This document shows positions 5,583-26,275 of a stretch of DNA of 40,526 bases, one piece after another. Location: assembly GCA_904420615.1 (NCBI GenBank), contig CAJFVY010000029.1, positions 1 through 40,526 on the forward strand, read 5' to 3'. Position numbers and translations under genes: made by a program. The stretch is from an uncultured Bacilli bacterium (lineage in GTDB: Bacteria > Bacillota_I > Bacilli_A > RF39 > UBA660). Position 1 is the first letter of the stretch, and each line of letters begins with the position of its first letter. The notes beneath the pieces are model-generated. The model was given only the letters and a program-made list of their open reading frames with translations. It had not been told where the DNA came from and searched no databases.

Positions 5583-7382
5583 CTACTCATTATTTAAAGA
5601 TATGAACTTATCTAAAGTCTCTTTAAACATATTCATTGCTTCATCAAATACTTTTGTATCACTTAAATCAATATCAATTATTTTTAATACTTCTAATGGA
5701 TAATCTCTTCCCCCACTTTTCAAAAATTCTATGTATTTTTCTTTAAAATTAGGGGTATGATTTAAAATATTTTTAGCAATATAACTTGCAATGGATAAAC
5801 CTGTAGCATATTTATATACATAAAATGGAGTATAAAAATGTGGTATTCTCAAAGCTTCAAATTGTACTTCTTTATCTATTACTACATTTTCGCCAAAATA
5901 TACCTTATTTAATTCATAATAATAGTTACAAATAGCATCAGCTGTCAATACCTCACCTTTATCTGTCAAATCATGAATATATCTTTCAAATTCTGCAAAC
6001 ATCGTCTGTCTAAAAACAGTGCTTTTAAAAGTATCAAGCCTTTCATTTAAAATAGAAAGTTTTTCATCTTTAGTTTTAGCTTGTTCTTCCATATAATATG
6101 AAAATAACAATTCATTCACCGTAGATGCTATTTCTGCTAAAAAGATAGGATAACTTGATTCTTCATAAGAGTTATATTGATTAGAAAAATAACTGTGCAT
6201 TGAATGTCCTAATTCATGGGCAAGAGTAGAAACATCATTATATGTCTCGGTATAATTTAATAGAATGAAAGGTTTTGTATCATAACTTCCAGATGAATAA
6301 GCTCCACTTCTTTTATTTAAGTTAGGATATTTATCAATATATCCTTCTTTAAAAGCTTTATTTAAAACTTGGCTATATTCCTCTCCTAAAATACTTAGTG
6401 CTTTTTTGACTAGCTCTTCTGCTTCTTCAAAACTATATTTCTTATCTATTTCTTTTATAGTGCTAACATAACCATCATATAGATGAAATTCATCTAATTT
6501 TAATAATTTTCTTTTTATTTCAAAGTAATTATAAAGGTTAGGTAAATTTTTATGTACTACAGTAATTAAATTATCATATAAAGAAGTAGGAATAAAATCA
6601 TCAAATAAACTAGCTTCTAAACTAGAATTAAATTTTCTTAATTTACTAGAGACTGATAAACTTTCACAGGTTGCTGCTAAGGTAGATGTTAAAGTATTTT
6701 TAAACTCTCCATACACTTTATGATAGTTAATAAAAGCCTCTTTTCGAACTCTTCTTTCCTTTGATAATAACAAAGTACTATAGTTACTAGACGTAAGTTC
6801 TACTTCTTCATCATTTTCATCCTTTATGGTACCAAATTTCATATCAGTATCCATTAAATAATCCGCTGTATCACTACTACTACCTAAAACTTTAGAATAG
6901 GCTGAAATTATTTTTTCCTCTTCTTTAGTTAGTGAATGTTCTTTATATCTTAAAATATCTAAGATACTATGTTTAAAACACTTTAATGCTTCATCTTCTT
7001 CTATATATTTTATAATAGTAGCAGGATCAGTTTCCAATATCATAGGTACAACAAAAGAAGTTGCTTCACTATAATGTTGATATAAATTATTCATTTTACC
7101 ATATAATTCTTGATAAGGAGTAATTGCTGTATCTTCATCATTCTTACGAGCAGCAAAAGTATATAATTTTTCTATTAGTCTTGACGTTTCACTATCTAGT
7201 AATAGAAATTCTTTAAATGTATTCCTATTTGTTAGAAATGTATCTTGCAGATTTTTTATTTTTTCTATATTATTTTTCACTAACTCATAATCTTTATTAT
7301 AATCGTCTATATTTTTATAAACACTCTTTATATCCCACTTATCTTGATCTTTTATTTCATCTCTTTTTAATAGTTTATCCAT
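5583..7382 (-). CDS. pepF: Oligoendopeptidase F (M3 metallopeptidase)
   Basis: Cytoplasmic zinc endopeptidase that cuts short peptides. The HExxH motif is in LAHELGHSMH (residues about 389-393 of a 599-residue protein), with the third zinc ligand in the downstream FLAEIASTVNE helix. The N-terminal KWDI and TSLYDNLI segments also fit the family. I chose the ATG at 7382 because a TTG five codons upstream lies inside a strong palindrome. Neither start has a good SD, which is unusual here. The gene is inserted between dnaK and dnaJ, so it is probably cotranscribed with the HrcA-controlled operon. A role in clearing peptides from stress-damaged protein is inference. Confidence 0.95.
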   Translation of the reverse strand: MDKLLKRDEIKDQDKWDIKSVYKNIDDYNKDYELVKNNIEKIKNLQDTFLTNRNTFKEFLLLDSETSRLIEKLYTFAARKNDEDTAITPYQELYGKMNNLYQHYSEATSFVVPMILETDPATIIKYIEEDEALKCFKHSILDILRYKEHSLTKEEEKIISAYSKVLGSSSDTADYLMDTDMKFGTIKDENDEEVELTSSNYSTLLLSKERRVRKEAFINYHKVYGEFKNTLTSTLAATCESLSVSSKLRKFNSSLEASLFDDFIPTSLYDNLITVVHKNLPNLYNYFEIKRKLLKLDEFHLYDGYVSTIKEIDKKYSFEEAEELVKKALSILGEEYSQVLNKAFKEGYIDKYPNLNKRSGAYSSGSYDTKPFILLNYTETYNDVSTLAHELGHSMHSYFSNQYNSYEESSYPIFLAEIASTVNELLFSYYMEEQAKTKDEKLSILNERLDTFKSTVFRQTMFAEFERYIHDLTDKGEVLTADAICNYYYELNKVYFGENVVIDKEVQFEALRIPHFYTPFYVYKYATGLSIASYIAKNILNHTPNFKEKYIEFLKSGGRDYPLEVLKIIDIDLSDTKVFDEAMNMFKETLDKFISLNNE

Positions 7383-9932: not shown

Positions 9933-10931
9933 CTAAGACGAAGCATCGCTTTCAATATTTTCTTTAATATACTCAAGCATACTCATGACTCGATCATATT
10001 CCATTCTCTTAGGACCAATAATGGCAATGGTTCCATCCATGGAAGATGATTTAAAATTAGTCTTAATCACAGTTACATCTTCATCAATGCTATTTTCACT
10101 ACCTATATATACTTCTATATTATTAGAATTATCATGCTTAATTTCCCGAATTAAGTCATCATTATCAAGTTTACTAAATAAATTTTTAATTTTAGTAACA
10201 TCACTAAATTCTGGCTGTTCCAAAAATTTTGTTCTTCCAACTACATTGATATCAGGATTTACAAAATCATTAAATACATTATAAATAGCATCATATAACT
10301 TTTCATGCTGGAAAACATAATTACCAATAATTGGTTTTACTTCAAACTCTAACTTAGCACTTACTTCATCAATTGGTGTTCCAACTACTAACTTATTAAT
10401 AAGATCAACCGTTTTTTTCACATCAGCCACATTAACGCCATCTAAATTTAAAGTCTTATGTTCTACTTTTCCTTTATCTGTCACAATAATGACAATCACT
10501 TGACTATCAGATAATGGCACGACACTAACTTCTTTCAATAAGTTTTCATGACTTGCTGTTCCTAAAACTACAGCCGTATAAGATGTCATATCAGAAACGA
10601 CTTGTAAACTCTTTTTAATACAGTCTGAAAGGTCCAAAGATTGATTATGAAATATAATCTGTAACTTTAACATATCTTCGCCATTCATCTTTTTAGGTTC
10701 AAGTAAATGATCTACATAATAACGATATCCTTCCTCACTAGGAATTCTACCACTCGAAGTATGAGTCTTTTCAAGCAATCCTTCATTTTCAAGATTAGCC
10801 ATCTCACTTCTAACAGTAGCACTTGAACACTTTAATTTTTTACAAATCTGTTTACTACTGACTGGTTTGGCTTGTTTCACATAATATTCTACAATCATTT
10901 TTAATATTTGATTTTGACGATTACTTAGCAT
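9933..10931 (-). CDS. hrcA: Heat-inducible transcription repressor HrcA
   Basis: Represses class I heat-shock genes by binding CIRCE, helped by GroEL in known systems. The N-terminal winged helix is clear (LSNRQNQILKMIVEYYV, then PVSSKQICKKLKCSSATVR and LEKTHTSSGRIPSEEGYRYY). The rest is the GAF-like dimerisation region, ending GTIAIIGPKRMEYDRVM. I start it at the ATG at 10931, behind AGGAGGTG. An in-frame extension to 10961 would run through the CIRCE operator, so it is rejected. 332 residues. First gene of hrcA-grpE-dnaK-pepF-dnaJ and autoregulated by the two CIRCE sites. Confidence 0.98.
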   Translation of the reverse strand: MLSNRQNQILKMIVEYYVKQAKPVSSKQICKKLKCSSATVRSEMANLENEGLLEKTHTSSGRIPSEEGYRYYVDHLLEPKKMNGEDMLKLQIIFHNQSLDLSDCIKKSLQVVSDMTSYTAVVLGTASHENLLKEVSVVPLSDSQVIVIIVTDKGKVEHKTLNLDGVNVADVKKTVDLINKLVVGTPIDEVSAKLEFEVKPIIGNYVFQHEKLYDAIYNVFNDFVNPDINVVGRTKFLEQPEFSDVTKIKNLFSKLDNDDLIREIKHDNSNNIEVYIGSENSIDEDVTVIKTNFKSSSMDGTIAIIGPKRMEYDRVMSMLEYIKENIESDASS

Positions 10932-10941
10932 GAAACACCTC

Positions 10942-10968
10942 CTAGCACTGCTTTTTCTCAAGTGCTAA
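10942..10968 (-). promoter_or_regulatory. CIRCE operator 1 (HrcA site)
   Basis: On the minus strand TTAGCACTT, a 9-bp spacer and CAGTGCTAG. Two or three bases differ from the consensus TTAGCACTC-N9-GAGTGCTAA. It sits immediately downstream of the -10 box, at the expected transcription start, and its proximal arm runs into the hrcA SD (AGGAGG), so HrcA bound here would block initiation. Confidence 0.92.
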
Positions 10969-11030: not shown

Positions 11031-11219
11031 TTAACAGCTACCATCTAACACGCAGCTATTTAATTTTTCCGCCTCTTGATCAGCAAAATCATCTGTAGAA
11101 CTTCGCTCAAAGCTTTGAAGAGAAACTAGCAAAAATAGAATTAATGCTAATAAAAGAATCAGAGCATATAAAATACTAGTAATAGCAAACCCTTTCTTAT
11201 TCAATATTAGTTTTTTCAA
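11031..11219 (-). CDS. Mini-pilin-like membrane protein (type IV pilin N-terminus)
   Basis: 62 residues. After a short basic leader comes KKGFAITSILYALI followed by a hydrophobic stretch to about residue 33, then a charged tail with two cysteines (SCVLDGSC). The K-K-G-F junction plus hydrophobic helix is the type III signal of type IV pilins and pseudopilins. Mature position 5 would be Ser in place of the usual Glu, and the globular domain is nearly absent. The start is a TTG supported by AGGAGG at good spacing. It is 9 bp from the anchored protein upstream. No prepilin peptidase or assembly ATPase is in the window, so assembly into a filament is unproven. Confidence 0.65.
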   Translation of the reverse strand: MKKLILNKKGFAITSILYALILLLALILFLLVSLQSFERSSTDDFADQEAEKLNSCVLDGSC

Positions 11220-11228
11220 AATATCCTC

Positions 11229-11783
11229 CTATTCTTCCACGACCTCAATTACCGCATGAAAATGGCTTGTTCGATCAACTATAAAATTACTTGTCATAGG
11301 CCATACACGTATAGAATAATCTTCACTCTCATTACTTTCTAACGTATCTTCATAAATTACACCATCTTGAGATTCACTGTAAATCATCGCAATGGGAGCC
11401 AAATGATCTTTTCTAAAACTAATCTTTAATAATTCACTAGGTATTACTCTATCACTACAACCACATTCTAATATTTTTTCTTCATTTGGAATCATCGTTA
11501 TTTTGTAACTAACAGTATTAGGAGTAGTATTGCTAACAGTAAAATTGTAGGCTGTTGTCGATAATCCTACTGCATCTGTTACAGGAGTAAATTGTAATAA
11601 ATCTACTTGATTACCATTCTTCTCATGAAAAACCACTTCTAATTGTCCAGCATCATAATCTTGATCTCGTAATTTAGAAAACTTTTGATAAATCAAATAA
11701 GTAGAAACAATCACAAAAAGAAAAAGAAAAGCAATAATAATAGCACATTTTAATTGATATTTTCGATATTTAGTAAGTTTCAT
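11229..11783 (-). CDS. Membrane-anchored extracytoplasmic protein, unknown function
   Basis: 184 residues. Basic N-terminus, one membrane helix at about 13-33 (CAIIIAFLFLFVIVSTYLIY), then an exported domain with alternating hydrophobic/polar stretches that looks like a beta-sandwich (TTAYNFTVSNTTPNTVSYKITM). It contains a Cys-Gly-Cys (ECGCSD). The layout resembles small TasA/camelysin-like or pilus-associated exported proteins, but I see no diagnostic motif. SD GAGGTG precedes the ATG. It is followed at 9 bp by the mini-pilin-like gene, so the two are likely expressed and may act together at the surface. Confidence 0.7.
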   Translation of the reverse strand: MKLTKYRKYQLKCAIIIAFLFLFVIVSTYLIYQKFSKLRDQDYDAGQLEVVFHEKNGNQVDLLQFTPVTDAVGLSTTAYNFTVSNTTPNTVSYKITMIPNEEKILECGCSDRVIPSELLKISFRKDHLAPIAMIYSESQDGVIYEDTLESNESEDYSIRVWPMTSNFIVDRTSHFHAVIEVVEE

Positions 11784-11852
11784 TCCTACACCTCATACTT
11801 ATTTTAAAACTTCTTTAAAATCTAGTCAATATTATAGCTAAAATGGCAACAA

Positions 11853-11881
11853 AAAATGTATGAAATTTTCTCATACATTTT
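11853..11881 (-). terminator. Terminator after the NodB-like gene
   Basis: Minus strand: 11-bp stem AAAATGTATGA / TCATACATTTT with a 7-base loop, running into TTTTTTG. It overlaps the stop codon at 11880-11882. Confidence 0.85.
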
Positions 11882-12746
11882 ACTTATCAAAATCCCTAGC
11901 TTCATTTAATAAATGATCAAGCGTATCAAGAATATAACCCCTTTGTTTCAAATATTTAAGAGTTACATTTAATTCTTTTAAAGTTTCTTTATTAATATTA
12001 ATACTAATAATAGACCCATTTGTAATATTACCTTTTACTTGTTGATATAAATTATCTTTAATTAATAATGTAGGAATAATAGTATGCATTTTTTCTTTAC
12101 TACACAATTCTAATACTTCTTTACTATCGTATTCAGCATAACAATACTTTCCTTCTTGATTGGTAATTGTTTCTAATTGATCAAGAGAAGCTTCAAATAA
12201 TAATTTGTCATACTGATTATTATAACTTAAAAGTTCTACTTGATGAAAATCTGAAGCAAGCATAGTTACTTTATCTTTATTATTTTCAAGCCACACACCA
12301 TCCACAAAAAAAGTACCATATGCATCATTATCATTCAAAATCTGATTTACTTCATCTACTTTAGTATCACCTGTAACTTTAAAAACTAACGAAATTCTAT
12401 TTGTAAATCCATTTCCAGATGATATATATTTATCATAATAATCTTCCATTGAAATACTAGGTTCTACTTCTTCAAATACTAATAAACTCTCATTATAACT
12501 ACCATATTGTTTCATTTTATCAAAACTCTTTTTGGTATTTACTTCTACTCCATTATACCCAGGAACTAAATAATCTTCCTCTACTACAGCATCAACTGCA
12601 GCTTCACTAACAGAAGATTTCATAGTCACGATCTCTTGCATAATTGGATCTGTTTCTTCAACCATATCTACCACTTTATCAGTGTAATAAAAGCTAAAAA
12701 GAACAAGTAAAATAATAAAACTGCCTTCAATGATTTTTTTAACCAT
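11880..12746 (-). CDS. Anchored NodB-fold (polysaccharide deacetylase-like) protein, probably inactive
   Basis: 288 residues from the ATG at 12746 (SD AGAGGTG); a longer frame to 12794 lacks a ribosome site. One membrane helix near the start (IIEGSFIILLVLFSFYY), then a linker, then a region resembling NodB homology: ISLVFKVTGDTKVDEVNQIL, DAYGTFFVDGVWLENN, and a C-terminal YLKQRGYILDTLDHLL. Active deacetylases have T-F-D-D-G and H-S/T-x-x-H; here these are VFKVTG and FHQVELLSYNN, so the metal and base residues are missing. I infer a binding or scaffold role at the outer face, perhaps on peptidoglycan. Next to rnj and the pilin-like pair. The fold call rests on pattern recognition only. Confidence 0.55.
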   Translation of the reverse strand: MVKKIIEGSFIILLVLFSFYYTDKVVDMVEETDPIMQEIVTMKSSVSEAAVDAVVEEDYLVPGYNGVEVNTKKSFDKMKQYGSYNESLLVFEEVEPSISMEDYYDKYISSGNGFTNRISLVFKVTGDTKVDEVNQILNDNDAYGTFFVDGVWLENNKDKVTMLASDFHQVELLSYNNQYDKLLFEASLDQLETITNQEGKYCYAEYDSKEVLELCSKEKMHTIIPTLLIKDNLYQQVKGNITNGSIISININKETLKELNVTLKYLKQRGYILDTLDHLLNEARDFDK

Positions 12747-12797: not shown

Positions 12798-12823
12798 AAG
12801 ACAATCTTTCTTTTGATTGTCTT
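12798..12823 (-). terminator. Terminator of the RNase J gene
   Basis: Minus strand: 9-bp stem AAGACAATC / GATTGTCTT with an 8-base loop, followed by a run of seven T. It overlaps the stop codon at 12822. Strong. Confidence 0.92.
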
Positions 12824-14477
12824 ATTGAACTTCTTGAATAACTGTAATAATCATTGGTTTGGATTCTGTCATCTTATAAAAATATTTACCCAATGTTTCT
12901 CTTACATCATTTTTAATTTTACTATAGTCAACTTTCTTAGTACCGTATTCTATATTAGATTCTATAATTTCTTTAGCCACTTTCTTAATTTCTGAAATTA
13001 AATCTAAATTTTCTTTTACATAAATAAAACCACGAGTTAATACCTCTGGACCAGCTAAGATAGTTTTCGTATCTTTATCAAGTGTACAACTAATAATAAC
13101 AATACCATTTTCTCCTAGCATTTCTCGATCTTTTAATACTAAATCACCAATATCACCAGATGTATTTCCATCTATCAATATTTCATCTGTTTCAATGTGT
13201 TCACTAGTTGGTTTTAATTTACCATTTACAAATAATACTACATCACCATTTTGTTTTAACAAAATATGATCTTTATTTATTTTCATCTCTTCTGCTACTT
13301 CAGCATTAGCATATTGATCTTTATATTCACCCTTAACTGGAAAATAATATTTTGGTTGCATAATATTGATCAATAATTTTAAATCTTCACTAGAGGCATG
13401 ATGTAATAAATGCTTTTTAGAAGATAGACTAATGGCATTCATTCCCATCATAGCAATTTCATCCATAATACCAGTAAGTCTCTTTTCAATTCCTACATAA
13501 GATGGTTCAGTAATAAAAATCGTATCCGTCTTTTTCAATTTAATATATTTATCAAATCCTTTTAAAATACGTTCCAAATTAGCAAATGGTTTTTCTTTTT
13601 CATCAGAAATTAATACTACTACATCTTTATCATTCAAGTTACTAAGATCACCAATTACTCTTGAATCAATTGTTAAATAATGATTCTTAATTGCATAGTT
13701 AATAATAGTTTGTAAGCTCTTACCCATAATAACAATCTTACGATGAGTTTTGCTAACTTCATCAAAAATTTCTTGAATACGATAAAAATGAGCTGGAAAA
13801 ACAGTAGCAATAATACGATCAGGATTTTTTGCTAAAACATTTCTAATAAAGTCTTGTACTCTATTATTAGGACTAGTATAGCCACTACGATAAGCATACA
13901 TAGACTCAGCTAATAAACAAAGTACTCCTTGTTTTCCTACATAAGCTAGTTTTCCTATATCTGTCTTATAAAGACCTGTCATAGCATGATCGAAAGTAAA
14001 GTCTCCCGTATAAACAATAGCACCATCTTTAGTATATAAAACATAACATAATGCATCAGGAATAGAGTGTGTCATAGCAATTGTAAACATACTTTCTTCT
14101 TTGAAATCTAATTTCGTATGAGCTTTAATTTCATGAAGATTAATTTTCTTTCTCTGATTAGCATTAAGATCTAATTTTAATATTTCAAGCGTTAATTTAG
14201 CACCATAAATTGGTACTTCTGGAATATAATTAATAATATCAGGAACAGCTCCAATATTTCCCTCATGACCATGACTCAAAAAAATACCTTTAATTCGTTT
14301 TCTGTTTTTAATTAAATAATCAAAATTAGGAATAATATAATCAATCCCCAAATTTTTTTCATTATCATATTTTAGTCCGGCATCAAATACATAAATATTT
14401 TTATTTACTTCTACAACATACATATTTTTTCCATTTTCATTTAATCCACCAAGACTAAAAATTTTTATTTTACTCAT
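12822..14477 (-). CDS. rnjB: Ribonuclease J, J2-like with degenerate active site
   Basis: Metallo-beta-lactamase/beta-CASP ribonuclease family acting in mRNA decay and rRNA processing. 551 residues cover the whole fold: start KIKIFSLGGLNENGKNMYVV, VYTGDFTFD, beta-CASP region, HHASSEDLKLL and the C-terminal RGFIYVKENLDLISEI domain. Catalytic residues are altered. The motif HxHxDH is SHGHEGNIG (His69 and His71 kept, Asp and the third His replaced by Gly73 and Asn74), and the last metal histidine of VHGEY is Lys382 (VKGEY). His137, Asp159 and His360 remain. Such changes are known from RNase J2, a partner of active J1, so I call it J2-like; the name is a guess. SD AAAGGAG. Confidence 0.85.
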   Translation of the reverse strand: MSKIKIFSLGGLNENGKNMYVVEVNKNIYVFDAGLKYDNEKNLGIDYIIPNFDYLIKNRKRIKGIFLSHGHEGNIGAVPDIINYIPEVPIYGAKLTLEILKLDLNANQRKKINLHEIKAHTKLDFKEESMFTIAMTHSIPDALCYVLYTKDGAIVYTGDFTFDHAMTGLYKTDIGKLAYVGKQGVLCLLAESMYAYRSGYTSPNNRVQDFIRNVLAKNPDRIIATVFPAHFYRIQEIFDEVSKTHRKIVIMGKSLQTIINYAIKNHYLTIDSRVIGDLSNLNDKDVVVLISDEKEKPFANLERILKGFDKYIKLKKTDTIFITEPSYVGIEKRLTGIMDEIAMMGMNAISLSSKKHLLHHASSEDLKLLINIMQPKYYFPVKGEYKDQYANAEVAEEMKINKDHILLKQNGDVVLFVNGKLKPTSEHIETDEILIDGNTSGDIGDLVLKDREMLGENGIVIISCTLDKDTKTILAGPEVLTRGFIYVKENLDLISEIKKVAKEIIESNIEYGTKKVDYSKIKNDVRETLGKYFYKMTESKPMIITVIQEVQ

Positions 14478-14600: not shown

Positions 14601-15536
14601 TTATCTTTCACCTATTAATTTACCATGGACAACTAACCTTCCAGTATTATCTAAATTACAAGTAGATAATGTAATAATTTTAGTATTTGCATCTAATTCT
14701 TCATTAAAATTAAAGACACTTCTTTGTTTTAAAGTATTTAAAAAATCTAAATAACTAGAATCACTTTGAAAACTAGTAGTTAAATAATATACTTCTGGAT
14801 CAATTTCATAAACAGAAAATACTTTAAATGTATAAGTCTTATTCTCAGTTTTTAAAAGAATAATATGATCTTTATTTTGTAAATAATCATTAGTAAATAA
14901 AACATCAATTTGACCAAACATAGTATTATCAAGACGATGATGTCCATAAATAATAGTATTTTTAGAAAGAGTATCAAATGAATTACGATAATCTGCAAAA
15001 ATAGCTCCTCTTTGCGAATATGTTTTATTAAAATCATGTGTTAAATAATAATCATTGTCTGTAGTTTGTACAACAGGATAACTAATATTTGTATCTAATA
15101 CTTCTAAATACGCTACAGTATCAGGATTACTAGTTTTTAAAGATGTAAAATCTATTATAGTATTAGTATTATAATTAGTATTATTGTTATTTTCTGTATT
15201 AGAAGTAGAGTCATTATTAGTTTCAATTGTACTGACATCTTCATAAGAAACTTGACTTTGAGCATTAGTGCCAAATGTATTACTATTTTTAGGTACAAAT
15301 ATATTGATAAAAGATAGTATAGCTACTAAATATAAAATTGTTAACAGAAAATTTTCAGGATGTTCTTTTTGATTTTCAAAAAAGTTTCTTGTTTTTATAA
15401 ATTTAGTTGTTCCTCCAATTTTTAGGAGCAACCAATTGATACCATCACATAATAAGGAATAGAAAGTACTAATAGTAAAAGAAAAACCATATATTGCATA
15501 TCGAATTGGTAATAAAATAGCTTTTAGTACTTTCAT
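14601..15536 (-). CDS. Class B sortase
   Basis: Membrane transpeptidase that attaches proteins to the cell wall or pilins to each other. Catalytic residues (numbering from a GTG three codons upstream): His202/203 in IYGHHRLDNTMF, Cys296 in ITLSTC, and Arg303 in GRLVVHGKLI. The spacing and the SYPVVQTTDNDYYLTHDF lead fit class B. One membrane helix at about 66-83, preceded by another hydrophobic stretch, then an Asn/Thr-rich linker (105-130). I prefer the ATG at 15536; the GTG at 15545 has equal ribosome-site support (weak GGGTAGGG). No sorting-signal substrate is evident in the window, so the target is unknown. Confidence 0.9.
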   Translation of the reverse strand: MKVLKAILLPIRYAIYGFSFTISTFYSLLCDGINWLLLKIGGTTKFIKTRNFFENQKEHPENFLLTILYLVAILSFINIFVPKNSNTFGTNAQSQVSYEDVSTIETNNDSTSNTENNNNTNYNTNTIIDFTSLKTSNPDTVAYLEVLDTNISYPVVQTTDNDYYLTHDFNKTYSQRGAIFADYRNSFDTLSKNTIIYGHHRLDNTMFGQIDVLFTNDYLQNKDHIILLKTENKTYTFKVFSVYEIDPEVYYLTTSFQSDSSYLDFLNTLKQRSVFNFNEELDANTKIITLSTCNLDNTGRLVVHGKLIGER

Positions 15537-15572
15537 TTTTGTCACCCTACCCTAAAATAAGTATCTTGGATT

Positions 15573-19214: not shown

Positions 19215-19478
19215 TTATTTTTGGAATTTATCAGATTTCAATATTTTAGATTTAATAATATCAAAACTCTGATCATAAAAAGAAATATTTACACCTTCTA
19301 CATTACCTAATTTATCATAAAGTTCCTCATTAGAAATTTCTAAATTATTTGATAAAATAGACACTAGTGAGGGATCTTTTTCCAAACAATCAAGAATATC
19401 ATGAACATAAATCAATTTAATTTGTTCTAGTTTTCTCAATCCCTGTTCATTCTTCTGATCTATAAAACCTTTCATCAC
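19215..19478 (-). CDS. Small protein paired with a RelE-like gene, possible antitoxin
   Basis: 87 residues, mostly helical. The centre (LIYVHDILDCLEKDPSLVSI, then NNLEISNEELYDKLGNVEG) could be a short helix-turn-helix, but no consensus is clear. It starts at GTG 19478 or ATG 19475; either overlaps the stop of the upstream gene (GTGATG junction), so the two are translated together. Toxin-first order with a small downstream partner is that of HigBA-like modules. I do not recognise the family, and the antitoxin role rests on context only. Confidence 0.5.
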   Translation of the reverse strand: MMKGFIDQKNEQGLRKLEQIKLIYVHDILDCLEKDPSLVSILSNNLEISNEELYDKLGNVEGVNISFYDQSFDIIKSKILKSDKFQK

Positions 19479-20248
19479 TTTTTTTCTCCTTTATTACTTC
19501 TTTTATTTTCTTCTAACTTTTGTCTAATTTTACAGCAAATAATTTCATTTTCTTGCAATAACATATCACATTCAGTTGGATCTTGAACGATCTTCTTTAA
19601 TTGCCTATATTCATCACTTGTGGTTCTACTTCTATTGATTACTTCTTTTTGATCTATTAAAGCATTATCATCTTTTTTCATTCTAGCTTGCATAACATAA
19701 ACTATATTATTAGATAAAACTCTATAAATAAGTCTTATTTTAAATTCTTTAATTTCATATAACCCAAACATTTTTTTATTATTAGTAAGTTGTCTAACTT
19801 TTTCTTTATTGGATTTCATTTCACCAAATTCTAAAAAATCTAAAGCTGATAGAACTTTACCATAATATTCAGGAGGAATATCTTTCAAGTCTCTTTCTAA
19901 AAAAGTTTCTCCATAAGTCGTCTTTGCAAAAACTAAACGTCTCTTAGAATAAGTAGCCTGATTAACTAGATTATCATCAGCAAGTTGTTTTTTAACGTTT
20001 TCTACTTCACTTTTACATAATTCTATTTTTTCTTGTAATTCTCGAATAATTTCTAAAGCTTCTTTGTCATTTCCTAATGTTTGATACTCCATACATTCTT
20101 CCACTAATCTTGATATAATTCCTTCCATCAGCGGAAAAAAGTTTTGATATTCTGGAGTTGGTAAAGCCTCTAATACATCTTTTTTATCTTGTAATAAAAC
20201 AATTACATCATAATAACTATCTCTATGTTCCTTTAATTGTTCATCCAT
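19475..20248 (-). CDS. RelE-superfamily toxin-like protein with long helical N-terminus
   Basis: About 257 residues from the ATG at 20248 (weak AGAAGTG site; the in-frame ATG at 20293 has none). Residues about 1-125 are charged and helical, probably coiled coil (EIIRELQEKIELCKSEVENV). The C-terminal part has LKDIPPEYYGKVLSAL and MFGLYEIKEFKIRLIYRVL, then IVYVMQARMKKDD. This is the strand pattern of RelE/HigB/Gp49-type mRNA interferases (G-L-x-E-h-K...R-h-h-Y-h...KK). Stand-alone toxins have about 90-120 residues, so the extension is unusual. It precedes and overlaps a small partner gene. Toxicity is inference. Confidence 0.6.
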   Translation of the reverse strand: MDEQLKEHRDSYYDVIVLLQDKKDVLEALPTPEYQNFFPLMEGIISRLVEECMEYQTLGNDKEALEIIRELQEKIELCKSEVENVKKQLADDNLVNQATYSKRRLVFAKTTYGETFLERDLKDIPPEYYGKVLSALDFLEFGEMKSNKEKVRQLTNNKKMFGLYEIKEFKIRLIYRVLSNNIVYVMQARMKKDDNALIDQKEVINRSRTTSDEYRQLKKIVQDPTECDMLLQENEIICCKIRQKLEENKRSNKGEKK

Positions 20249-20366
20249 ATAAAATATCACTTCTCTATCTATATTAAATTTTTTTATATACATATTATGA
20301 TTTACTATGTATGATTTTCTACTAATTATTTTGTTAATTCAATTAGCATTATCATAACCTAATTTC

Positions 20367-20518
20367 TTATCTTGTTCTATGATTTACATTCTCTACATCC
20401 TCTAACGTTTTTTGTTCTTTTTCTAAATATAAATTATAACTCTTTTTTATTTTATACAAGTCATAAATAACCAATTTCAAATTTGCTTTGTCAGCTTCTT
20501 CTTTAGCATCATTTATTT
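20367..20518 (-). pseudogene. Out-of-frame C-terminal tail of the KilA-N gene
   Basis: After the KilA-N stop (TGA at 20509-20511) a neighbouring frame is open for about 49 codons, reading INDAKEEADKANLK, then IYDLYKIKKSYNLYLEKEQK, to a TAA at 20367-20369. Dropping one A from the AAAA run near 20518 joins it in frame and makes a protein of about 337 residues with a charged helical end. Suggests a recent frameshift in a phage-derived gene or a sequence error. Confidence 0.45.
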
Positions 20519-21381
20519 TCTATTAACTTATTCTTACAATTAGTATCAATAGTTTGAATCCTCACAATATTATTGTCATTTTTTAATATTTCTATTTCTC
20601 TAATAGCATTATTATTTAACTTTTCAAGCCTTTCTTTTTGACTAATTCCATTTTCTATCATATTACTATTTAATACTTCCAAATTACTTAATATAACTAA
20701 ATGTAAAATGTCTGTATGATCTCTTATATTTCCTTCTAAGTTTGGATTTTTTTCTCTCCACTCTCTAGCTGTCATGCCAAAAAGAGCAACATTTATAACA
20801 TCAGCTTCATTTGCATATACAAATTTTTTCTGTTTTTCTGTAAGTTTTGGAACAATATATTCTTTTATACTATCAGTATGTATTCTATAGTTAGTTTTAG
20901 ATAAACTTCTTCTAACAGACCACTCAATTTCTCTTTGATAACTCTCATTATATTTTAATCTTTTAAACTCTTTAATCAAATACAATTTAAACAAATTATC
21001 AATCCAAGAAGCAAATTCTAGTGCTATATCAGAATGGGCAAATGTACCTATACTATATTTCCCTTTACTAGGAATTAAACCTTTAGCGCCCACTCTTGTA
21101 CACCACTGACTTGGAGTCATTGTAAAAGATCTTTTGGGGGCCTCGCTTTTAATTCGGCTGAATTCCGCCAAATTAAAATTTTCATTACTTAATTCTTCCC
21201 AAAGGCCTAAAAATTCTATAGTATCATAATTACTTAACCATTTTTTTATAACATCTGAAGGTTCTTTAGGATTTTTATAGCGGGCTAAATCAGTAAGCGA
21301 AATATAATCTTCATTATCTACTCGCATCACTCTAATCTCATTATCATTAACATTCATAATAGTTGTAGCTTTCGTATTCAT
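20509..21381 (-). CDS. KilA-N domain protein (phage-derived), probably C-terminally frameshifted
   Basis: 290 residues. The KilA-N DNA-binding domain covers about residues 10-120: YISLTDLARYKNPKEPSDVI, WLSNYDTIEFLGLWEEL, GLIPSKGKYSIGTFAHSDIA, LEFASWIDNLFKLYLIKEF. The rest is helical. Such proteins are typical of phages and mobile islands and probably bind DNA; exact function unknown. A strong SD AAAGGAG precedes the ATG. It lies beside the toxin-like pair, and both look accessory. The frame breaks near the end (see 20367-20518). Confidence 0.9.
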   Translation of the reverse strand: MNTKATTIMNVNDNEIRVMRVDNEDYISLTDLARYKNPKEPSDVIKKWLSNYDTIEFLGLWEELSNENFNLAEFSRIKSEAPKRSFTMTPSQWCTRVGAKGLIPSKGKYSIGTFAHSDIALEFASWIDNLFKLYLIKEFKRLKYNESYQREIEWSVRRSLSKTNYRIHTDSIKEYIVPKLTEKQKKFVYANEADVINVALFGMTAREWREKNPNLEGNIRDHTDILHLVILSNLEVLNSNMIENGISQKERLEKLNNNAIREIEILKNDNNIVRIQTIDTNCKNKLIENK

Positions 21382-22901: not shown

Positions 22902-22972
22902 TTTTTAATCACCTATTAAATTAAGTATAATGATTTTTCTTAAATTTGTACATATTAAAAATGGAGGTACAT

Positions 22973-24394
22973 ATGGAAATCATTGAAAAGCTAAAAGAAA
23001 AATTACAAATGAATGGCGATTTTATTTTTCGTGACTTAACTATAAATGGTATTAAAATCTATCTAATCCAAAACGAAGTGTTATGTAGTAGTACTTATAT
23101 TAATCATTATATCTTAAAAGCAATTACTACTCTTCCTTTAACGAATGAGAATAAGGAGGCGTTACTCTACGATTTATTACCAGATAATTCTGTAATCAAA
23201 ACAGAAAAATTAGAAGAGATGCTTGATTATTATTATAAAGGTTTTGCTCTTATTGTATATGATGAAAATAAGGCACTTGCCATTGAAGCTAAGGCTAGCC
23301 TAGATCGTGGTATTAGTAATAGTTCAAGCGAAAGTACTGTTAGAGGTAGTAAGGATTCTTTTAATGAAAATTTTAATACTAATGTTGGTTTAATTAGGAG
23401 AAGATTACGTAGTGAAAATTGTATTATGGAAAGTTTATTTATTGGCAAAGAAAGTAGAACTAAGGTTGGTATCATGTATATGGATACTATTGCTTATCCT
23501 AGTAATGTTGATAAAGTTAAAGAAAAGATGCAAAAAGTAGATATTGATGGTGTATTAGATAGTGGCTTTTTAAAAATGTATCTTGAGAAAAAAAGTAATC
23601 TTTTCTTTCCTACTGTTATGGCTACAGAACGACCTGATCGTGTAAGTCAAGCTCTTTTAGAAGGAAAAATCGCTATTGTAGTTGATAATTCGCCTTATGT
23701 TTTAATTACTCCAACCTTTTTCATTGATTACTTACATACTCCTGATGATTACTATCAGCGTGCTCTTAATATTTCCTTTATTAGAATTATTCGTTTTTTA
23801 GCTTTTCTTGTGGCTATTTTTACACCAGCTCTTTATATTGCTACTACTACACACAATCAAGGTGCATTACCCCTTGACCTATTATTAAATTTTGCCTCTC
23901 AAAGAGAAAGTGTCCCTTTTTCGCCCTTAGTAGAGGCTTTATTCATGAGTATTGCCTTTGAAATCTTAAGAGAAAGTGATATTAGAAAACCTGCTGCTAT
24001 GGGAAGTGCTGTTTCCATATTAGGGGGACTTATCTTAGGAGAAGCTGCCGTCTCGGCTGGAATTATTTCACCGATTATGATTATTGTCATTGCTATATCA
24101 GCAATATCAGGTCTTGCTTTTTCTTCTATGGAAATGATCGCTGCCCTTAGATTCTTACGCTTTATCATGATGTTTTTAGCTATGTTCTTTGGTTTATTTG
24201 GTATTTATTGTGGTGGTATTTTTATCTTAGCTATGTTAACAACAACCTCTACTTTAAACCTTCCCTACTTTGCCCCATTCACCCCATTCATCAAGAGTGA
24301 ACTAGAAGATGCCTTAGTAAAGTTTAAAAATAAAAAAATTAAAAAACGGAATCCATTACTTACTAAAAATATCGTTAGAGGGAGGGAAAAATGA
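22973..24394 (+). CDS. gerAA: Spore germination protein, GerA/GerKA family
   Basis: Subunit A of a germinant receptor in the spore inner membrane. 473 residues from the ATG at 22973 behind GGAGG; a further 9 in-frame codons upstream lack support. The N-terminal soluble domain (to about 235) includes the conserved DNSPYVLITPTFFIDYL and LHTPDDYYQRALNISFIRI. Four or five membrane helices follow (LVAIFTPALYIATT, ESDIRKPAAMGSAVSILGGL, GEAAVSAGIISPIMIIVIAI). It overlaps the GerC gene by 4 bases (ATGA). Confidence 0.93.
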   Translation: MEIIEKLKEKLQMNGDFIFRDLTINGIKIYLIQNEVLCSSTYINHYILKAITTLPLTNENKEALLYDLLPDNSVIKTEKLEEMLDYYYKGFALIVYDENKALAIEAKASLDRGISNSSSESTVRGSKDSFNENFNTNVGLIRRRLRSENCIMESLFIGKESRTKVGIMYMDTIAYPSNVDKVKEKMQKVDIDGVLDSGFLKMYLEKKSNLFFPTVMATERPDRVSQALLEGKIAIVVDNSPYVLITPTFFIDYLHTPDDYYQRALNISFIRIIRFLAFLVAIFTPALYIATTTHNQGALPLDLLLNFASQRESVPFSPLVEALFMSIAFEILRESDIRKPAAMGSAVSILGGLILGEAAVSAGIISPIMIIVIAISAISGLAFSSMEMIAALRFLRFIMMFLAMFFGLFGIYCGGIFILAMLTTTSTLNLPYFAPFTPFIKSELEDALVKFKNKKIKKRNPLLTKNIVRGREK

Positions 24395-25404
24395 AAAAGA
24401 TAATAGCTTTAATCGTGATTATCCTATTATTTACAGGATGTACGAAATATACTGAAATTAATAATCTTGCCATTGTGGATATGATACTTTTAGAAAAACA
24501 AGAAGATCAATATATTTTAAATATTACAACAGTAAAAGGGCAAAAAGAAGAAAATGACACCGGTATTAAACATCAAACTTATCACATTGAGGGAAAAAGT
24601 TTAGGTGAAGCATTTAATAAAGCTGAACAACTAGATAACAAAAAAACTTATTATGAACATTTAGCACTTATTATTATTCATGATTCACTACTACAAGAAG
24701 ATGCGATAAATATTCTTGATTTCATTAAGAATCAGTTTCCTAAAACAAATTACTTAGTCTTGGGTACTACTTCTTCTACTACTCTAATTAGTAATCAATT
24801 TAAAGGTCACCAAGATATTGAAAAGTTTATCAAAAAAGAACAGTTAGAAAATGCTACTATTGCTCCTCTTACCTTTGATCAAATTTATAAAGCAACTCTT
24901 GATAAAGAACATGATAGTTTTATTCCCATGATTCGTTATCAAGAAGAAACACTTTCTGGCGCAGGAATCAAAGTCTTAAAAAATAATACTCTTTATGATC
25001 AAAATATGAGTAAAATCAATTACTTATTAAATAATAATGTAAATCAAATACCTATGACTTTAGAAAAAGATAATAAAAGTTACTTTATCAACTTTGATCA
25101 TCTTAATGTTACAACTTCTTTTCGTAAGGATACTTTTACTATTACTATAACCGGTGATTTACAAAGTAGTGATGTTACTAAAAAAGAACAAGAAGAGATG
25201 GAAGCATTATTAAAAGAACAACTAAAAAAAGAAATAACAACCTTTATTGAAATGGAGCAAAAAGAAAGTATTAGTACTACTAATTTAAAAAATCTTGTCT
25301 ATCTAAAGATGGGTAATAAAGAAAAACTAGATACTACTTATCAAAAAAGTAAGCTAAATATTAAAATAAATACAACATGGAAAGGAGAAACAATCGATGA
25401 CTAA
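24391..25404 (+). CDS. gerAC: Spore germination lipoprotein, GerAC/GerKC family
   Basis: Lipoprotein subunit C of the germinant receptor. Signal peptide with lipobox LLFTGC (Cys17 modified). 337 residues: the family's first domain includes YTEINNLAIVDMILLEK and YYEHLALIIIHDSLL; the second the IKVLKNNTLYD segment and the C-terminal alpha/beta part ending TTWKGETIDD. Conserved sequence is weak, as usual for GerC, but the start, size and place between A and B subunits identify it. Overlaps gerAA by 4 and gerAB by 8 bases. Confidence 0.85.
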   Translation: MKKIIALIVIILLFTGCTKYTEINNLAIVDMILLEKQEDQYILNITTVKGQKEENDTGIKHQTYHIEGKSLGEAFNKAEQLDNKKTYYEHLALIIIHDSLLQEDAINILDFIKNQFPKTNYLVLGTTSSTTLISNQFKGHQDIEKFIKKEQLENATIAPLTFDQIYKATLDKEHDSFIPMIRYQEETLSGAGIKVLKNNTLYDQNMSKINYLLNNNVNQIPMTLEKDNKSYFINFDHLNVTTSFRKDTFTITITGDLQSSDVTKKEQEEMEALLKEQLKKEITTFIEMEQKESISTTNLKNLVYLKMGNKEKLDTTYQKSKLNIKINTTWKGETIDD

Positions 25405-26275
25405 TCGTAATGTAGGATTATTACAATTATTTTCTTTAACCTTTTTCTTGAGTCATTTCTTTTTTCTCTTCTATGGAGGTAATATTATTAAAATTAGTGG
25501 AAGTGATACAATTTTTTCTTGTCTATTGGGTACATTTTTAAATATTTTTCTCTTTTCTATTCTATTACGAATTAGAAAACATAAAAAAACAAAATCAAAA
25601 AATAAAGTGCTCGCTATTGCAATAGCACTCATCATATTAGTAACTATTTTTTTAGTAGCAAATGACACAACTTATTTTGTAATACATCACTATCTAGAAA
25701 ATGGAAATTATTTTTATATTTTCTTATTACTTCTTATTTGTGCTTATATTATTTCTAAACGAAACATGGATAGTGTTGCTTCTCTTGCTCTTTTACTATT
25801 CTTTCTTTTTGTACCATCTTTCATCTACAATATGATTGGTTCTATTAATATCTTAGATCTATCTTATTTAAAGCCTCCTTTTGATAGTTCTTTCGCTAAT
25901 GTAATAAAAGGTGCTTTACTATTTTCTTTTTATACTCTACTACCTCTTCTTTTATTGTTATTTATTCCCTATGATCAAGTAGATCAAAAAGAAAAACAAC
26001 ATAAATATCTTCATTTAGGTTTAATCATTAGTAATATTGTTACGATTATTAGTTTTATGATGATTGGTCTTGGTCCTAGTTTTGTTTTAGCTAGTACTTA
26101 TCAATATCCTTATATGGTTGTGATTAATAAAATATCTGGTTTCTTAGTATTTAATCGTTTAAATTATATTTTTTCATTATATCTTTTATTTGATGCAACT
26201 GTTTTACTAGGATTATTATTTTCTATTTTGAAAAAAGAGGGCGAAAATTGGCGGTTATTTAAAAAGTCTCAGTAA
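25397..26275 (+). CDS. gerAB: Spore germination protein, GerAB/GerKB-type permease
   Basis: Membrane subunit B of the receptor, an APC-type transporter relative that binds the germinant. 292 residues, with about 8-9 hydrophobic helices; the usual family length is near 360, so this one is short by about two helices at the expected N-terminal FFFLFYGGN region onwards. Segments such as GLLQLFSLTFFLSHF and SFYTLLPLLLLLF are visible; sequence is otherwise diverged. Identified mainly from its position as third gene of a gerA-gerC-gerB operon. Ends in a terminator. Confidence 0.75.
   Translation: MTNRNVGLLQLFSLTFFLSHFFFLFYGGNIIKISGSDTIFSCLLGTFLNIFLFSILLRIRKHKKTKSKNKVLAIAIALIILVTIFLVANDTTYFVIHHYLENGNYFYIFLLLLICAYIISKRNMDSVASLALLLFFLFVPSFIYNMIGSINILDLSYLKPPFDSSFANVIKGALLFSFYTLLPLLLLLFIPYDQVDQKEKQHKYLHLGLIISNIVTIISFMMIGLGPSFVLASTYQYPYMVVINKISGFLVFNRLNYIFSLYLLFDATVLLGLLFSILKKEGENWRLFKKSQ

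Follow-up and report, generated by a model that had tools for sequence, protein, structure and literature searches.

On balance, our data favor reading the 62-residue protein encoded at positions 11031 to 11219 of the window as a tip-type minor pilin from a type IV filament, modular, lacking Glu5, and present here in a headless form. The window is the whole stretch of 40,526 nucleotides that was analyzed, from an uncultured Bacilli bacterium of the family UBA660. The observations behind this reading are the conservation of the gene, the absence of Glu5, the exchange of head domains, the pairing with a partner gene, the presence of filament machinery in the genome, and adjacency to pilin genes in some other genera. 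The features of the region are as follows.

9933..10961, minus strand: hrcA-like ORF (by eye), which follows the pair in the window and in many other genomes of the genus
11031..11219, minus strand: mini-pilin, 62 aa, TTG start; headless allele of a Glu5-less modular pilin-like gene (from sequence and orthologues)
11187..11192, minus strand: codons for G10 and F11 at K-K-G↓F, the predicted cleavage junction for prepilin peptidase (from sequence and invariance in the genus)
11224..11230, minus strand: Shine-Dalgarno sequence AGGAGG(A) of the mini-pilin (from sequence), overlapping the anchored-protein stop codon
11229..11783, minus strand: membrane-anchored protein, 184 aa, a candidate TasA-like beta sandwich (from orthologues, model, and fold match)
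11801..11829, minus strand: weak promoter-like TTGACT-17-TAAAAT before the mini-pilin/anchored-protein pair
11834..11890, minus strand: hairpin and T-run just 3' of the NodB-like gene (-12.1 kcal/mol, z -3.5)
11880..12746, minus strand: predicted YlxY-like NodB-fold pseudoenzyme, 288 aa (from profiles); only a neighbor of the conserved pair
12822-14477, minus strand: RNase J-like ORF (by eye), upstream of the NodB-like ORF

Read along the minus strand, the order is RNase J-like, NodB-like, anchored protein, mini-pilin, and hrcA-like, with a gap of 9 bp between the anchored-protein gene and the mini-pilin and only ~70 bp between the mini-pilin and the hrcA ORF. In front of hrcA (~10943-10968) lies a CIRCE-like inverted repeat, and the hrcA-grpE-dnaK set is therefore probably a separate unit from the pair. 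The hairpin at 11834..11890, which is absent from the terminator-scan list, perhaps separates the NodB-like gene from the pair. Promoter-like sites in this region are no more frequent than in shuffled sequences.

Other parts of the window yielded separate observations, i.e., a sortase gene upstream of the RNase J-like gene (14601-15545; PF04203, E 1.9e-16), a small island with a toxin-antitoxin-like ORF pair and a KilA-N-like ORF that is possibly a mobile remnant (19215-21381; by eye), and three ORFs in a row resembling a GerA/GerC/GerB germinant-receptor set (22946-26275; by eye) in a genome of 1.07 Mb. In one relative (L014), spoIIGA-like and sigma-factor-like ORFs were seen by eye behind the NodB-like gene.

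The pilin-type junction and type IV filament genes

An earlier sequence-only reading of this DNA had described a 62-residue protein with a pilin-type KKGF junction, and this description holds: K-K-G↓F is followed by a hydrophobic run. Around the cleavage site, the window protein has the marks of a class III prepilin (a Gly or Ala ahead of the site, usually preceded by a basic residue, and behind it a hydrophobic residue leading into about 20 more). An alignment of 26 genus sequences, the window included, shows no variation at G, F, A, L, and Y in the junction region, and G, F, and Y are invariant in an N-terminal alignment of 27 members. The signature of the gene is G↓F-A-x-S/T-x-x-x-Y, without Glu5; in the window mini-pilin, the mature protein has Ser at +5. 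The N-terminal methylation motif PF07963 is matched by none of 26 genus members tested, and the best match of the window mini-pilin among curated families is ComGE, at an E value (0.012) that falls under the cut-off. If cut after Gly10, the mature protein would be 52 residues long, which is about the size of the pilin alpha-1 helix.

That no assembly genes are present, as had also been stated, is true of the window and false for the genome, which encodes a prepilin peptidase, a PilC/GspF protein, and a PilB/GspE-type ATPase elsewhere. More specifically, in this assembly of 92 contigs and 1.07 Mb (92% complete), the gene for a prepilin peptidase (PF01478, with an A24_N domain) directly follows that for a T2SSF/PilC protein, and a full-length PF00437 ATPase of the PilB/GspE type is encoded close to two ORFs whose starts are class III-like. 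A type IV pilin calls for a peptidase, PilC, and an ATPase for assembly, and this one genome has all three. In addition, four other ORFs of this genome match PF07963 above the cut-off.

A family profile built from 27 N-termini was matched, at E up to 1e-3, in 124 of the 145 genomes of the family and, at E up to 1e-6, in 107; the figure of 124 is an upper one, since weak profile matches can be canonical prepilins, as at L248 and L250. Seven weak matches among 392 phylum genomes beyond the family (E 1.6e-4 or worse), six of which start at model position 10 or later, were not accepted. Outside the genus, we examined 77 genes from 71 genomes, 10 of the genes running off the fetched stretch; non-family loci, L180 (no ORF found), and L149, L150, L248, and L250 (contig end, poor match, or canonical prepilins) were excluded from this set. 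The first mature residue is F in 74 of the 77, I in 2, and L in 1, and the +5 residue is T in 29, S in 18, G in 18, A in 7, V in 3, I in 1, and Y in 1, with Glu in none of them. Sixty-one of the 77 genes are headed, and 16 encode proteins of under 100 aa.

In 10 of the 71 other-genus genomes, the gene lies ≤34 bp from, or overlaps, a gene for a canonical Glu5 prepilin or a prepilin peptidase; such encoding together with other pilins or assembly genes is not seen in the window. In one of them (G435, L238), the order is PilC-like (by eye/motif), PilD, and the pilin-like gene with a glycine-rich head, and in another (G346, L231), three genes overlap in a row, first two canonical prepilins and then a 62-aa headless copy. 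The fetched flanks of the other 61 genomes hold no canonical prepilin or PilD within 400 bp of the gene, and an rsmD-type housekeeping ORF (by eye/motif) is near it in 19 of the 71. Since the genome has type IV machinery and the gene adjoins prepilin or peptidase genes in those 10 genomes, the small self-contained envelope structure first imagined for this cluster is not needed. Co-occurrence with the prepilin peptidase is uninformative because both are nearly universal. There is no visible dependence of the gene on the peptidase, in that 9 of the 13 genomes with no PF01478 match contain it, although the genomes are incomplete.

As a separate observation, several very large canonical prepilin-type ORFs (590-1438 aa) lie beside the Glu5-less gene at L252 and L253 (G161 and G389), and these loci are possibly whole sets of modular pilins.

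The anchored partner and the NodB-like neighbor

Our genus set comprised 35 genomes of a Candidatus Onthousia-type genus, our own included. In 30 of them, the anchored protein and the mini-pilin both have strong orthologues; the other 5, 4 of which are <90% complete, have neither. The coupling proposed earlier was borne out in that the two genes form a pair in all 30 genus loci. Beyond the genus, the partner has strong matches (E below 1e-38) in 18 other genera, and wherever an other-genus genome has both partner and pilin, the two are on different contigs (16 of 16); their physical pairing is therefore a genus trait. The partner's neighbors in other genera, at the 10 of 18 loci covered, are unrelated genes or another TasA-like paralogue. 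At L268, L269, and L273, the partner orthologue was seen by eye to adjoin another TasA-like paralogue near murG/murB-like genes.

The partner had been called anchored and beta-rich, and one N-terminal helix followed by beta strands is indeed predicted. An AlphaFold2 model based on 25 sequences (pLDDT 73.6) has a helix at 5-40, a weak stretch at 38-73, and then a beta sandwich. VIA-align placed TasA first (5of2, Z 8.3, 129 residues, rmsd 3.2, 3% identity; 5of1, Z 7.9), and because other, unrelated folds follow at Z 7.1, we have moderate confidence that the modeled partner is TasA-like. TasA was not among the first 50 rows of a Foldseek search against the PDB, which placed PliG lysozyme inhibitors and other beta proteins first (E 3.6e-4, TM ~0.3). 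When the sequences of the anchored protein and of its two paralogues in the genome, which have the common motifs P-x-x-D-x-V-G-L...F-T and Y-x-x-R-x-W, were searched against solved structures, nothing significant was returned; among curated families, no Pfam match was found in 16 members and no NCBIfam match for the window protein. When set against TasA/CalY, the anchored protein has TasA 5of2 as its best structural match, but the identity is only 3%, its membrane helix is apparently kept, and it has no Pfam match. The genome also encodes a TIGR02228-type signal peptidase, a type that is presumably linked to SipW.

The NodB assignment of the neighboring protein survives by sequence profile. 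It matches solved NodB proteins (7bkf, 6hpa, and 6hm9) over positions 33-285 of 287 (E 4e-37 to 1.5e-35), 14 of 15 members match PF01522 with E values of 0.01 or better (the window protein, at 22.4 bits, is just under the cut-off of 23.1), and the match to TIGR02873 (YlxY) reaches 96 bits, far below the cut-off of 391.5. A single-sequence structure model (mean pLDDT 37) was discarded, and the assignment rests on these profiles. The catalytic Asp and His were correctly reported as lacking, both motifs being absent in all 15 aligned members: Asp is missing at the place of the TFDD motif in each of them, a few having VDD two residues on, and so is HxxxH, which is visible in the 7bkf alignment. 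Judged by profile and alignment, the predicted protein is a YlxY-like NodB homologue without catalytic residues. It has the N-terminal extension plus NodB domain of the YlxY-type putative polysaccharide deacetylases (TIGR02873), in a nearly full-length profile match, but has lost their metal and catalytic residues. BA0330 and BA0331 are described in PMC4505593 as NodB proteins without deacetylase activity that stabilize the wall, and by analogy wall stabilization is a likely role for the protein studied here.

The three genes had been taken for one cluster, a proposal that was to be given up if they did not co-occur in relatives, and in relatives they do not travel together: the NodB-like gene was seen to adjoin the pair at a single one of its 30 loci, that of the window. 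Upstream of it, 26 of the 30 have a penicillin-binding-protein-like ORF (by motif). Three NodB loci end ≤90 bp after the gene (L013, L016, and L025). The pair was not found in the genome of L013 and has other upstream genes in that of L016; in G025, the genome of L025, the NodB-like gene and the pair genes both stop at contig ends, which leaves their adjacency undecidable.

Exchange and loss of head domains

The gene is not intrinsically mini, as the sequence-only reading had it, since 18 of the 30 genus orthologues are 204-681 aa long (one of them cut by a contig end at 286 aa) and the other 12, the window included, are headless proteins of 57-64 aa. The first 50 residues are alike across headed and headless forms (26 sequences, mean column identity of 67%). 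What defines a modular pilin, an N-terminus fused to a domain that is not pilus-specific, is seen in the headed genus orthologues; the window allele is headless. A Pfam scan of 15 of the 18 headed genes, whole or in part, revealed ricin-B lectin heads (L098, L099, L114, and L116), ALK_LTK glycine-rich heads (L097, L098, L102, and L104), a LamG head with a weak FGE-sulfatase match (L103), DUF6273 heads (L109, L112, and L118, with L121 just under the cut-off), and a ChW head (L110). For L108 and L120, Pfam gave no significant family, and the names given to the heads of L115, L119, and L123 go by resemblance.

At the DNA level, flanks that are mostly 90-100% alike surround pilin alleles that are 65-85% alike, from which it follows that whole alleles are exchanged. 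When the headless L106 and the ricin-headed L115 are compared in blocks of 60 nt, identity is 83% in the block just ahead of the junction and 90-100% in the nine that precede it, over the partner gene; the pilin blocks are at 65-85%, the first block past the stop is at 57%, and fourteen blocks at 95-100% follow. The comparison of L099 (ricin) with L109 (DUF6273) gave 90-100% for thirteen blocks before the junction and 65-85% for the pilin N-terminus, with identity past the stop recovering more raggedly. On a partner-gene tree of 29 rows (L125, with a partial partner gene, was left out), the head state (8 states, minimum 7) changes at least 13 times, and headed and headless forms switch at least 9 times. 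Both counts were made without a shuffle control, on a tree with many open forks and with long branches for the window, L100, and L105.

A diversity-generating retroelement was observed on contig C58 of the same genome as the window (L127, 4339-8312), with an RT (PF00078, E 3e-17) and a bAvd-like ORF (E 0.0016, under the cut-off). Its repeats, in L127 coordinates, are as follows.

6151-6229: C58 template repeat
6410-6488 and 7076-7154: C58 variable repeats, inside a 662-aa protein

The mismatches lie at template adenines in 10 of 10 and 17 of 18 cases, and the 662-aa protein has an N-terminal domain related to the window's anchored protein (E 5e-16) plus DUF6273. Among 20 further genus stretches, equally clear repeats were found in G014 (10/11 and 13/13) and G018 (15/16 and 16/16), whose fetched stretches show no RT, and weaker repeats with an RT-like ORF were found in G002, G007, and G024. 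An RT motif scan over the retrieved loci gave one clear case and one false one. One of the seven DUF6273-type heads, that of L109, contains a GC-rich stretch (0.54 vs 0.32 for the gene) that is absent in the other six and is 71-76% alike to the template repeats of G000, G007, and G024, although no more than half of the mismatches fall at A. The genome to which L109 belongs, G014, has a template repeat of its own, and this repeat does not match the DUF6273-headed pilin of L109.

Alternative readings, known systems, and biological meaning

We infer processing, polymerization, the tip position, and the partner's role as follows. The chromosomal prepilin peptidase would cut after Gly10, leaving 52 residues, and PilC and PilB, encoded elsewhere, would insert the helix into a short pilus or pseudopilus. 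According to PMC10191384 and PMC9934059, the partner of Glu5 is the N-terminal amine of the next subunit up, and a Glu5-less subunit caps the minor-pilin tip complex. As no such pairing would form without Glu5, the protein would take the tip-most position. A fused head, often glycan- or wall-binding, would be shown at the tip; headless alleles would keep an initiating or capping helix and display nothing by themselves. The TasA-like partner, outside the membrane, would probably serve for docking or stabilization.

It is possible, if doubtful, that the protein is no filament subunit and that its N-terminus is a plain membrane anchor, cleaved or not, for the display of exchangeable surface domains; the headless form would then be an anchor without cargo. 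This reading agrees with the missing Glu5, with the lack of PF07963 matches (0 of 26), with most genes not being seen near pilin genes, and with head kinds that occur in wall- or glycan-binding surface proteins; however, an anchor of this sort would not need the conserved G-F-A-x-x-x-x-x-Y junction, and other genera show overlaps with canonical prepilin genes and the order PilC-like, PilD, pilin. We consider it unlikely that the mini-pilin is the stick of a Geobacter-like split pilin with the anchored beta protein as its separate head. Split pilins exist (PMC10191384), and the mature length of 52 aa and the strict pairing within the genus would suit one, but the partner is equally present where the pilin has its own head (18 of 30), has a predicted membrane helix of its own, finds its best fold match in TasA, and is unlinked to the pilin elsewhere in the family. 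According to the same paper, the Geobacter stick lacks a globular head, like the headless form, but is a major pilin, whereas headed and headless forms here are alleles of one gene.

Decay of a headed gene into a 62-aa remnant seems very improbable to us. Headed forms are the commoner ones (18 of 30 in the genus and 61 of 77 outside), and selection on the window copy itself is not measurable, pairs with the window (pN/pS 0.48-1.01) being too distant to judge it; on the other side, headless forms recur (12 of 30, and 16 of 77 under 100 aa), a good Shine-Dalgarno sequence precedes the window copy, only ~70 bp separate this copy from the hrcA ORF, and pN/pS is 0.12-0.17 in eight headless pairs of near relatives, other headless pairs ranging from 0.22 upward. 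That the mini-pilin, the anchored protein, and the NodB pseudoenzyme together form one unrecognized envelope structure is scarcely credible: the three genes adjoin on one strand in the window and the contig ends of G025 leave one further case open, but the NodB-like gene is beside the pair in that single locus of 30, a stable hairpin lies between it and the pair, and 26 of the 30 NodB loci have the penicillin-binding-protein-like ORF upstream instead.

The Glu5-less tip pilin is proposed on the strength of cited precedents for tip complexes and for modular pilins. Of the latter, >1,200 proteins with 264 architectures were collected by IPR012902 (PMC8179133). The Streptococcus sanguinis modular pilins PilB and PilC join a pilin N-terminus to unrelated effector domains, e.g., ConA-like lectins, and they are likewise likely tip exposed and of many architectures; PilC has a normal Glu5, unlike the pilin-like gene described here (PMC8179133 and PMC9934059). 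In further contrast to modular pilins, PF07963 is matched by 0 of 26 members, the headless form leaves no room for the pilin beta-sheet, and a single orthologous gene has different heads, or none, in close relatives. The pilin-like family would probably escape an IPR012902-based search. GspK/PilK and S. sanguinis PilA also lack Glu5 and are tip-placed, and PilA has a solved globular structure (PMC9934059 and PMC10191384). Our literature searches found nothing that joins modular pilins with recombination or with lectin or variable heads and nothing on UBA660 pili, and RF39 with pilin gave only seemingly unrelated work, none of which proves absence.

More broadly, we tentatively propose that the family has a Glu5-less tip-pilin socket whose whole gene, head included, moves between genomes by homologous recombination in the conserved flanks, which would leave sister species with unrelated lectin-like heads or a bare plug. 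The L109 tip, whose DUF6273 stretch resembles template/variable repeats, could possibly be, or have been, diversified by reverse transcription too. If the tip-pilin reading is right, searches based on Glu5 and PF07963 (the latter in 26 genus members) can miss a gene that is matched in most family genomes, and nature would have provided a minimal tip pilin in the bare mature form of 52 residues. Uncultured, small-genome gut Bacilli would then exchange what their filament tips bind, which would help to explain how reduced genomes vary glycan attachment.
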